Shown in pieces: positions 15,169 through 54,207 of a stretch of 64,000 bases of DNA. Each line of letters begins with the position of its first letter. The first letter of the stretch is position 1. A model generated the notes under the pieces. The model worked only from the letters and a program-made list of their open reading frames with translations, was not told where the DNA came from and made no database searches. Made by a program: the position numbers and the translations under genes. The stretch comes from Whalleya microplaca (lineage: Eukaryota > Ascomycota > Sordariomycetes > Xylariales > Xylariaceae), in contig MU385713.1 of NCBI GenBank assembly GCA_022497155.1, positions 1,364,001-1,428,000 on the forward strand. The letters are read 5' to 3'.

Positions 15169-16108
15169 ATGTTTTTCGACGAAATCACACCACCGCCTTA
15201 CTCTCCCGCAGGTCCCTCCGACAGGAGACGCGATGTTGGGCACGAAATACCTAATGAGCAGCCTCAGAAATTACAACCATGGCAGAAGCGTTGGAACAAG
15301 GAATGGGTTTCGCAAGCGGTGATACCCGACATCCGTTGGAGAATGGACCGTATCGAACGACGTAAAAATGGCCTGGACCACGAAACAATAAAGTACTACA
15401 GAGACAACGTCGAAAATTACGCATTGCAGGTTGAGCGTATGCAGCCTGGATCAGATAAGAAGGGCCGTTGTCGTGGATGGCGGCGGTAAGTAGTACCCAA
15501 GGTCATTTGTTACCCCTTTTGGCCTGTTTCAGGAGCAAGAACCCCCTATTGGGACATGTTCAGAGGCTAAAGCTCCTGAGGCAGGCCTTGCAGCCCCCTA
15601 TACTTGGTTAAAAAGAGCAAATACTAACCCCCAATACTGTAGTGCATGCCATCGCATGTTCGGCTCCCTCGGAGACTTGAAGGTCGGATACGACGACTTC
15701 AGGAAGTGGCGGCAGGAGCGCCAGGATGGCACAAAGCTGTGGGAGGTCAGAGCAGTGATAGAGGATCAGGGCGAAGACCCGATGTGGGAAGGGGAGATCA
15801 TCTTCAAGATCCGGCCAGAGAACTACGCCAAGCTGAAGGAAAACTGGTTCAACTTTCCTTCTCCCGAGAACATCAAGTGGTTCTGGGTAACAGATCCGGA
15901 CGGACTTCGTCTCCTACAGGGACCAGCAGCTGAACATTGGGGACCGCAAAGAAACTCGAAGAATTGCCTTCCTTTCGGCAGGGAAAATGGCTGTGTCGTG
16001 AAAAATCCCCCTTCGAGCGCCTGGGGAACGCACTGGGAAGTCTGGAGTAATTTCCCCGAACCGGCGGCTCCTAAGACATACTGGCCAGGCCCCCGTCGCG
16101 ATTCTTAG
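15169..16108 (+). CDS. Unrecognised two-exon protein with an introner-like intron
   Basis: Exons 15169-15485 and 15643-16108 give 260 aa. I do not recognise the family. Near the N-terminus there is a Pro/Tyr motif (PPPYSP, residues 8-13), then a basic Trp/Arg-rich segment (WQKRWNKEWVSQAVIPDIRW). The second exon is rich in Trp, Pro and charged residues (for example WEGEIIFKIRPENYAKLKEN) and ends TYWPGPRRDS. No signal peptide, membrane span or catalytic motif is visible. Coding is supported by the open frame on both sides of the intron, by the splice join CG|T encoding Arg in WRRACHRMFG, and by GC content above the flanks. The intron is unusually long for this window (157 nt) and belongs to the related set at 22953 and 53938. 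The gene stands alone, with over 1 kb of non-coding sequence on each side. Confidence 0.65.
15486..15642 (+). mobile_element. Introner-like intron, copy A
   Basis: A 157-nt GT-AG intron (GTAAGT...TGTAG) with branch site AATACTAAC. It contains a perfect RNA stem: arm 15521-15536 (GGCCTGTTTCAGGAGC) pairs with 15572-15587 (GCTCCTGAGGCAGGCC) through 14 Watson-Crick and two G-U pairs, around a 35-nt loop. It shares sequence blocks with the introns at 22953-23120 and 53938-54094. Calling it an introner-like element is inference from this shared sequence and structure. Confidence 0.75.
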
Positions 16109-22212: not shown

Positions 22213-23131
22213 ATGGACATGACAATGACCAGCGGCATGTCAGGCACAATGACAATGGCCACCGCGAGCTCAACATCCACCTCGACCGCCGATGGTGGAA
22301 TGGACATGGACTCATCCACCATGATGATGACCAGCGCAGACATGGCGATGACCTTCTTTTCAGCCGTCACGACGCCCCTCTACTCGTCTTCCTGGACGCC
22401 GTCGGGCACCGGCACCTACGCCGGCACCTGTATCTTCCTGATCGCGCTGGCGCTCACGCACCGCGTGCTCCTCGCCATGCGCTTCCTCCTCTTCGACTCT
22501 AATCCCGCGCTGCACCGTCACCGCCACCAGCACCATAAGGTCCTGTCGGAGGATGGGGCCGATTACGATGGTAGTAGTGGGAGAGCGGAGCTTATGGGGC
22601 GCCATGTCCGTGAGCAGTGGAATAGTCACCCGTTTCGCGTCGCTACGGAGACGATGCGTGCGGTGCTGGAGGTGGTTATTGGGGGCGTGGGGTACTTGCT
22701 GTGAGTTTCTACCTGGTGGACTGGACGGGGGTTGAGTCATGTTGAGCGAACTACGTTATGTTACGCTCAGTGTGGTGGACTATGGCAGGTGTAGCCGGCC
22801 AACCTCTTCGTGCTGGTGCGAGAGTGACGATAGCTAATCTGTTGCACATAGCATGTTGGCCGTGATGACGATGAACGTCGGATACTTCCTTTCTGTGCTG
22901 GGAGGCATCTTCCTGGGCGCGTTCGTGATGGGCCGATTTGGTGCTAGCGACAGTGAGTTTCATCCTGAATCATTTATTCTCTTTCGGTCCTTCCTGTTTC
23001 AAGGCTCGAATTCCCTATTGGGGTATACTCGGGTGTGAGAACGCCTGAGACAGGTCTTAGGATACCTGAGGATTCGCTAAACCGTTGAAAAAGAGGCAAT
23101 ACTGACTCTATATGCTCTAGTTCATCATTGA
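22213..23131 (+). CDS. CTR-family high-affinity copper transporter
   Basis: Exons 22213-22700, 22852-22952 and 23121-23131 give 199 aa. Seen: a Met-rich N-terminus with many Met-x-Met pairs (MDMTMTSGMSGTMTM and MDMDSSTMMMTSADM, residues 1-45), the usual Cu(I)-collecting region. TM1 is about 69-94; a His-rich cytosolic loop (HRHRHQHH, 101-108) follows; TM2 carries the M-x3-M motif M164-LAV-M168; TM3 carries G-x3-G (GIFLG, 181-185). The first intron interrupts codon 163 just before M164, so correct splicing is what creates the MxxxM motif. The protein ends ASDIHH, a short His-tipped tail encoded by the 11-base last exon. Family role: trimeric plasma-membrane channel importing Cu(I). The reductase gene immediately upstream would supply Cu(I). 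Intron 2 (168 nt) is an introner-like copy. Confidence 0.9.
22953..23120 (+). mobile_element. Introner-like intron, copy B
   Basis: A 168-nt intron (GTGAGT...CTCTAG) with branch block AATACTGAC. It shares TCATTTATT, CCTGTTTCAAGG (22993-23004), CCCTATTGGG (23013-23022) and AAAAAGAG near the branch site with copy A. Arm 22993-23005 pairs with 23043-23054 (GCCTGAGACAGG) through 12 pairs and one bulged base. Confidence 0.7.
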
Positions 23132-52750: not shown

Positions 52751-54207
52751 ATGGTTCGTCATACAGCCAGTTGTCTGCCCTGAGTAACTTCTAACCGGTC
52801 GTGTAGTACAGCGGATATGATCCTTACGATCCCGATAATCCGGCCGCCATGTACAACATGGCTCGTTCCGGCCTGATGCGAGGCGCAGGGCCGCGCCGCT
52901 TCGATGATTACTTCCGATGCTACCCCCTGGTCATGGCCCCGGGTTCCGAGAGGCCAGAGCTGAATTACGGTTCGAAGATATTCCTGCCGCCCTCGGCACT
53001 TCAGAAGATCTCGCAGTTGCATGTGCAGTGGCCCCTGATGATGGAGCTGGTCAACGGCGAGAAGGACCGTCAGACACATGCGGGTGTGCTGGAGTTCGTG
53101 GCGGAGGAAGGTCGGGCATACATACCGCAATGGGTAAGTTTGGCTACCGAATACAACAGATCTATTAGTTGGCTGACGGCTTGAAGATGATGCAAACACT
53201 GCAACTGGACGTTGGCGACATGATCGAAATCAAGTCGACATCGTTAGAGCTGGCCAAGATGGTGAAGCTGCAGCCGCAATCTACGAACTTCCTCGACATC
53301 AGCGACCCCAAAGCAGTCCTAGAGAAGGCGTTCCGAAACTTCGCTACGCTGACCAAAGGCGACATCTTCAACTTCGAATATAATGACGAGGTCTACGATG
53401 TGGCTGTTTTAGAAGTCAAGCCCGAGACGGAGAAGATGGGTGTCTGCATGATCGAGACAGATGTCTCCGTCGAGTTCGCACCGCCGGTGGGATACGTCGA
53501 GCCGTCTAGGGGCAGCGGCACCAGCACACCCAGAAGCAACCGGGGCGGCTTGCCCACCGGCGGACTTCTGCACAACCAGGGAACCATGGCTCAGTCTATA
53601 AACTACGATGCCATCGCCCCGAATGCCACGACAGCAGCTGCTGGAGCCCGTGCAGTCTCGTCTCACTTCATCAGCGAGGGCCACAAGCTGAACGCCAAGA
53701 AGGGCTCGAAAGCGCCGACGCCTAAGCCCTCGACTCCTGTCGCAGGTGCTTCCTCCAACACCGTCCCTGTTCAGCGACGACGGACGAACGGGCCCATGCC
53801 CCTGCGGCTGCCCCCGAATAAGCTATTCTTCGGTTACGAGGTCAAGCCCGTGAAGACGGATGCGGACAAGGAGGCAGACAAGGAGAACGCGAGTAAGCCA
53901 CATTTCGCCGGCCAGGGCCAGACGCTTAGAGGGGCGGGTAAGTAATATTCATGTCATTTATTACCATCTCGGTCCTGTTTCAGGGGTAAACTCTTGGGCT
54001 ATATCCGGGAGTTGAAAGTTCCCAGGACAAGGCTTAGAAATCTGGATGCCCTGCCAAACTGTCTAGAAAATGAAAATACTAACTCCTTACATAGTCAAGC
54101 GCCGGGGTGATGGCGATAGCGAAGACAAGGACAAAGGAAAGGGCAAAGGCAAGGCGCCGGATAGGTCCTCGAATGAGGGACGTCGCTTAGATGGACGCAA
54201 GTCATGA
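52751..54207 (+). CDS. ufd1: Ubiquitin fusion degradation protein 1 (Cdc48 cofactor)
   Basis: Exons 52751-52753, 52807-53133, 53187-53937 and 54095-54207 give 397 aa. The first coding exon is the ATG alone; intron 1 (52754-52806, donor GTTCGT, branch TCTAACC) leads to YSGYDPYDPDNPAAMYNMAR. Intron 2 joins IPQW to MMQTLQLDVGDMIEI, the UFD1 double-psi core. Further marks are ELAKMVKLQPQSTNFLDISD, VLEKAFRNFATLTKGDIFNF and VEFAPPVGY. The tail LFFGYEVKPVK is the Npl4/Cdc48 interaction side. Known: with Npl4 and Cdc48 it extracts ubiquitylated proteins, for example in ERAD. Intron 3 (53938-54094, 157 nt) is introner-like; without its removal the protein ends early at GAGK, while splicing adds a Lys/Gly-rich tail ending EGRRLDGRKS. 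Confidence 0.94.
53938..54094 (+). mobile_element. Introner-like intron, copy C
   Basis: A 157-nt intron (GTAAGT...ACATAG), same length as copy A. It shares GTAAGTA, TCATTTATTACC, GGTCCTGTTTCAGG (53971-53984) and GAAAATACTAAC at the branch site. The arm GTCCTG pairs with CAGGAC in the 3' part, and AACTCTTGG pairs with CCGGGAGTT (two G-U pairs) between them, so the structure is a stem carrying an inner hairpin. Confidence 0.7.

Follow-up and report, generated by a model that had tools for sequence, protein, structure and literature searches.

How introns of unrelated genes come to resemble one another from end to end is the question raised by a 64,000-nucleotide stretch of the genome of the fungus Whalleya microplaca (contig MU385713.1, positions 1,364,001 to 1,428,000, or C4:1364001-1428000 in our own contig numbering), here called the window. 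Three of its introns, termed copies A, B and C, lie in a gene of unknown function, in the gene of a Ctr copper transporter and in UFD1, respectively. An initial annotation had placed them exactly, with correct lengths, and had read them as an introner-like family with a stem retained by selection or with recent spread. The first part of this interpretation was confirmed: A, B and C are members of one dispersed introner family, similar end to end and inserted in unrelated genes of W. microplaca. The second part, stem retention and recent spread, did not hold. Our preferred explanation, to which we assign a probability of roughly 60%, is that the three introns are decayed copies of one mobile, non-coding, near-palindromic introner of 167 nt, which would have been copied via its excised RNA.

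Copies A, B and C measure 157, 168 and 157 nt, each of them beginning with GT and ending with AG, and their full-length alignment with MAFFT showed a mean column identity of 76%. The deposited proteins, all of which are gene models, agree exactly with the splicing of the three introns. The spliced translation of gene A is identical to the deposited W. microplaca protein P0241 over 260 amino acids, the C-terminus ASDIHH of the deposited copper transporter (P0121) fits the excision of copy B, and the deposited UFD1 (P0001) reads TLRGAVKRR over the junction of copy C. The insertions look seamless because of the protein alignments with relatives around these junctions: in gene A the junction is ungapped against both relatives (P0242 and P0243), in UFD1 it is ungapped in five of seven, the other two having one extra residue two residues upstream, and the copper transporter ends with HH in seven of eight aligned relatives (e.g., ASDLHH and ASDNHH), in one case with an extra residue. 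The ancestral state of the first exon base behind the intron, a T in all three copies, is shown by UFD1 only, where the Val codon is present in all seven relatives.

The eighth copper transporter, P0122 of Xylariaceae sp. FL0662B, has the deposited end ASDSK where the others have ASD-x-HH. This end resembles a read-through into an orthologous intron starting with GTAAGT, as GACAGTAAG followed by a stop is expected on reading into an intron that starts A^GTAAGTAG (^ marks the junction). The position of copy B may thus be shared with FL0662B.

The extent of the family was determined in the genome of 48,144,339 bases on 114 contigs. Copy A alone detected two further places by BLAST (E 8.9e-11 and 1.3e-8), a typed majority consensus of five copies detected 28 places, all with E<=4.9e-8, and a consensus of 29 copies detected 40 places at E<=8e-18 (40 of 89 candidates scored) as well as one weak antisense self-match (E=7). 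A 21-mer around the branch site near the 3' end, with up to three mismatches, occurred at 106 places vs. four for the reversed pattern, and a 26-mer from the 5' end at 44 places vs. none for the control, so that the family is by no means confined to the window. With 100 of the 106 3' matches listed, a partner was present for 16 of the 44 5' matches. The resulting capture-recapture estimate of 266 copies (standard error 45) is probably too small, as decayed copies are missed by both patterns, and the family probably comprises a few hundred introns. With a profile of length 167, which was run on DNA fetched around the family loci, 88 matches were obtained. These are not 88 copies, since they include an opposite-strand match in locus L027, which reflects the palindrome of the element itself, and incomplete or weak second matches in L021, L074 and L076, whose splice signals were not judged. 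The similarity extends from donor to acceptor, with 69 of the 88 matches running from the first to at least the 163rd of the 167 profile positions, and 29 copies with boundaries set by hand were 125-181 nt long. At several loci neighboring copies on the same strand were observed within about 1.3 kb (three matches in L029, two each in L065/L070, L071, L101 and L059), apparently within the same host genes.

The family tree calculated with FastTree is a star, with a mean internal branch of 0.032, a mean terminal branch of 0.303 and a consensus branch of 6e-9. Subfamilies were not recognized, support of at least 0.9 being reached at only one of 70 internal nodes, and the copies diverge from the consensus by 27% on average. 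The excess of terminal (0.30) over internal (0.03) branch length argues for one old burst from a single founder, with about 0.30 substitutions per site and copy, and against recent spread. Repeat-induced point mutation was rejected as an explanation of the decay, since CpA/TpG and CpG sites show only a mild excess of C-to-T and G-to-A changes.

The founder, represented by the 167-nt consensus, is an imperfect palindrome over most of its length. A near-terminal repeat AGCATC..GAGTCA, 6 nt inside the 5' end, pairs with TGACTC..GATGCT, 4 nt inside the 3' end, and the inner stem includes CCTGTTTCAGGAGC. Its minimum free energy of -55.1 kcal/mol compares with -37.5 kcal/mol for shuffled sequences (z -4.7). 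The uninterrupted 16-bp stem seen earlier in copy A is real; the corresponding stem of copy C is imperfect, and pairing over the family is at the level of chance. For 46 predicted pairs in 72 copies, 2185 of 3108 cells pair, vs. 2179.6 (sd 11.5, z 0.47) after shuffling of the columns. The folds of individual copies are hardly more stable than those of their shuffled versions (mean z -0.86, n=71; z below -2 in nine), and a mean of 9.2 of the 13 terminal pairs is retained per copy. Among single pairs that of columns 47-92 was strongest (z 4.3), also heading a mutual-information scan, and its neighboring pairs gave no support except 45-94 (z 2.5). Paired cells at the shuffled expectation and weak single-copy folds rule out a maintained RNA structure; the missing covariation warns against taking stems shared by introners as maintained RNA function.

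The copies share a target preference that is new here, a T at the first base of the downstream exon (+1) with a weaker A before and G after the junction and without target-site duplication. Boundaries were set in 73 copies by a rule that demanded an AG end or extended to the next AG; GT and the branch A were not demanded. The +1 base was T in 58 of the 62 copies with an acceptor taken directly from the profile (~94%), and in 67 of 73 once the 11 acceptors set by extension are included. One locus, L107, consists of two fragments of one copy with an acceptor misplaced by this rule and was dropped, which reduces the 73 copies to 72. The information content is 1.47 bits at +1, 0.27 at +2, 0.22 at -1 and 0.13 at -2, with G at +2 in 37, A at -1 in 37 and C at -2 in 31 of 73 copies. 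The C at -2 alone is not convincing, because the other 20 positions reach up to 0.15 bits (G at -11). Relative to T sites in the coding sequence of the host genes, A^T, T^G and CA^TG are over-represented (p 6e-6, 7e-6 and 1e-5), CATG being found at nine of 67 family T sites vs. 106 of 5312 coding T sites (odds 7.6). Moreover, A at -1 and G at +2 occur together (odds 4.0, p 0.009). Phase 1 is in excess (38 of 63 copies), which the phase of CATG sites explains: the intron phases of 57 copies (11/33/13) fit such sites (p 0.62) and fit T alone (p 0.02), A^T (p 0.04) or TG (p 0.003) less well. Ordinary introns, a noisy control in which decoy donors gave 28-35 matches, had T at +1 in 11 of 58 cases or, with a looser donor, in 21 of 78. 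In 69 copies and three placements the flanks agreed at 2 nt in two copies (shuffled mean 4.3) and at 3, 4, 6 and 8 nt in none.

The distribution of the copies is largely sense-genic. Among 63 copies with enough flanking DNA, splicing yields a sense frame without stops over 15 or more codons to either side of the junction in 61 and such an antisense frame in 45, a codon score favors the sense strand in 55, and each of the 63 introns contains an in-frame stop or has a length not divisible by three. Twenty spliced open reading frames (ORFs) were chosen by length and recognizable look from 40 printed of the 63. In 14 of them a Pfam domain spans the junction, 12 above the Pfam cut-offs (GH10, Na/H exchanger, rhomboid, esterase, sugar transporter, carboxypeptidase S10, histidine phosphatase, ABC membrane, one of two MFS, HAD, GH127 and methyltransferase) and two below them (P450 and the other MFS); in four a domain lies beside the junction and in two no domain was found. 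The splice signals are preserved in all aligned copies. In these 52, which lie in loci from the similarity searches and include a few neighboring copies found there with the profile, G1, T2, the branch A and the AG are intact without exception, while the other columns show 73% identity; the AG, unlike GT and branch A, was presupposed by the boundary rule. The alignment leaves out L011, L017, L018, L031 and the above second matches in L021, L074 and L076. By eye, L017, L018 and L031 retain the signals, too, which amounts to 55 intact copies of 56 judged. From these counts we infer that the copies now serve as ordinary introns, in which mainly the splice signals are under selection. The remaining copy, L011 (1501-1665 of the minus strand; C17:320759-320923), had been dropped by the boundary rule. 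It has lost the branch A and the acceptor AG and is likewise followed by T, and no other place matches the second consensus better (82%). The DNA to both sides contains stops in all frames, which makes it a dead or non-genic insertion.

According to the preferred explanation, the founder would have had a donor, a branch site and an acceptor of its own, located at the ends. Its excised intron RNA, stabilized by fold-back, would have been the copied molecule; it would have entered genes by reverse transcription or ligation at a favored break or nick before T, and the family would have died out afterward. An RNA intermediate would explain why the ends are the splice sites, why a duplication is missing and why the sense orientation prevails, and we put the RNA route somewhat ahead of a DNA route. 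The more specific proposal, that a spliceosomal intron multiplied through its own excised RNA by sequence-specific integration before T, preferably at A^TG or CA^TG and without duplication, is put forward tentatively. Several points weigh against an RNA-copied introner. The RNA step is deduced, no intermediate having been observed. Inverted repeats and a target that tends to be palindromic would rather be expected of a DNA enzyme, and to our knowledge no splicing rule predicts T at +1. The codon score favors the antisense strand in eight of 63 copies, and L011, in DNA without long open frames, points to insertion (or a dead gene) outside present coding exons. Intergenic copies may also be under-sampled, as six of the 40 similarity places lie outside the fetched sample. 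The predominance of T at +1 over A at -1 suits neither a simple RNA nor a simple DNA model; it would be in line with an enzyme that recognizes chiefly the downstream side, for instance in nick priming with copying from the 3' end of the intron.

A possible but doubtful rival is a DNA transposon without target-site duplication, of the type of a miniature inverted-repeat transposable element (MITE) and Spy-like, whose ends happened to be splice sites, which inserted through a blunt cut at CA^TG, and of which selection kept mainly sense copies in exons. The near-palindromic founder and its near-terminal inverted repeats, the joint occurrence of A at -1 and G at +2, insertion phases matching CATG better than T, A^T or TG, and the non-coding copy L011 speak for it, and five DDE_Tnp_4 matches indicate that such transposases once existed in this genome. 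However, if DNA inserted at random, many neutral copies would be expected between genes, by our estimate more than half, whereas 55 of 56 copies have intact signals. A symmetric cut further predicts equal bases on either side, yet T at +1 (94%) far exceeds A at -1 (51%), and C at -2 is marginal. The inverted repeats begin inside the ends, and no source element was found: the DDE_Tnp_4 matches and a Helitron match all contain in-frame stops, and none is linked to the introner family. Random capture of intron RNA or DNA during double-strand-break repair, as proposed for sister introns of the Hypoxylaceae, would account for the missing duplication and the symmetrical founder and concerns the same fungal order; it is improbable, since the site is not random, with T at +1 and CATG enriched among T sites. 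Convergence of unrelated introns on a common splicing-related RNA structure under selection, suggested by the motifs and the partial stem common to A, B and C, is refuted by end-to-end primary-sequence similarity at dozens of places, the star phylogeny and pairing at the shuffled level without covariation.

The family also departs from four known element types, and the stwintron reading was rejected. Helitrons insert between A and T and have 5' TC and 3' CTRR ends; A^T occurs in 36 of 73 copies, but the introner ends are GTRAGT and YAG. A [D1,2] stwintron starts with GGT, with an extra G before the internal donor, whereas G at -1 was found in only 12 of 73 copies and A, B and C are excised as single introns in the deposited genes. 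MITEs or other terminal inverted repeat (TIR) transposons with target-site duplication do not match the flanks of the 69 copies, and Spy lacks a duplication as well but has the target AAATTT.

The coordinates of all features are listed below. Rfam gave no match in the window at gathering scores, and a scan of prokaryotic genomes with UFD1 gave no match.

Table. Introner copies of the window, their parts and host genes, and transposase matches elsewhere in the genome (window positions, or contig and position).
Feature	Position	Strand	Remarks
Introner copy A	15486..15642	+	Intron of F5B20DRAFT_297656 (unknown function); junction CG^T, phase 2
Copy A segment	15491..15505	+	Consensus fold and columns
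Copy A inner 16-bp stem, 5' arm	15521..15536	+	Stem of the initial annotation
Copy A inner 16-bp stem, 3' arm	15572..15587	+	
Copy A 3' near-terminal inverted-repeat arm, branch site included	15625..15639	+	Consensus columns 150-164, fold
Target T (+1 exon base), copy A	15643..15643	+	+1 T in 58/62 family members
Introner copy B	22953..23120	+	Last intron, Ctr copper transporter; junction GAC A^TT; final exon Ile-His-His-stop
Target T (+1 exon base), copy B	23121..23121	+	
Introner copy C	53938..54094	+	Intron of UFD1; junction GCG G^TC, phase 1
Target T (+1 exon base), copy C	54095..54095	+	Second base of Val codon; Val in 7/7 aligned relatives
DDE_Tnp_4 match	C2:401714		4-7 in-frame stops each (all five matches)
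DDE_Tnp_4 match	C57:154146		
DDE_Tnp_4 match	C14:163678		
DDE_Tnp_4 match	C3:593120		
DDE_Tnp_4 match	C4:1497925		
Helitron_like_N match	C92:3051		11 stops

The origin of new spliceosomal introns is an old open question, and fungal introners are a case for a route other than DNA transposition. If the tentative proposal of sequence-specific integration is true, the Whalleya family would represent a nuclear counterpart of retrohoming, an intron gain which is neither DNA transposition with target-site duplication nor random break repair. The target preference provides a direct handle on the enzyme behind the insertions. Among titles and abstract beginnings of the open-licence PMC literature, with the motif itself not used as a search term, no paper on Whalleya introners or on a T or CATG introner target was found, and the name Whalleya is absent from the main text of PMC12403724 and PMC9024468.

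The host belongs to the Xylariaceae (Xylariales) and not to the Dothideomycetes, the class of the introner-like elements in PMC4457414. By the description given there, these elements are comparable in that similar introns occur in unrelated genes and degenerate over time; the terms 'insertion site' and 'target site' are absent from that text. The Whalleya family agrees with the working introner definition of Gozashti et al. 2022 (PMC9860276). There, ascomycete introners are described without TIRs and target-site duplications and those of Acanthoeca with TIRs and without duplications; the Whalleya consensus has near-terminal inverted repeats, unlike these ascomycete introners. Spy transposons, as outlined in PMC4482050, likewise combine a palindromic target with the absence of a duplication; their target is AAATTT vs. 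CATG here, and no transposase is linked to the Whalleya family.

The closest relatives in kind are the sister stwintrons of the Xylariales, described as seamless, with inverted repeats, without duplication and with junctions free of base bias (PMC8469720, PMC12403724). Both kinds belong to the same fungal order and consist of mutually similar intervening sequences, which occur in unrelated genes; both have inverted repeats at their ends or close to them, are inserted seamlessly and without target-site duplication, and are less symmetrical in older copies. Consensus columns 130-139 (TGTCTAGAAA) agree in nine of ten letters with the palindrome TTTCTAGAAA of Hypoxylon sister introns, an off-centre similarity that may be due to chance, and by eye the consensus does not resemble the printed letters of NTIRE-10. 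In contrast to the stwintrons, the Whalleya element is a single canonical intron and not a donor-disrupted twin, and it has the bias for T at +1, whereas bordering exons are reported as unbiased by the stwintron authors (PMC12403724). The Whalleya family unites a near-palindromic founder with the lack of a duplication and, although the choice of site was reported as random for this order, with a clear target preference.
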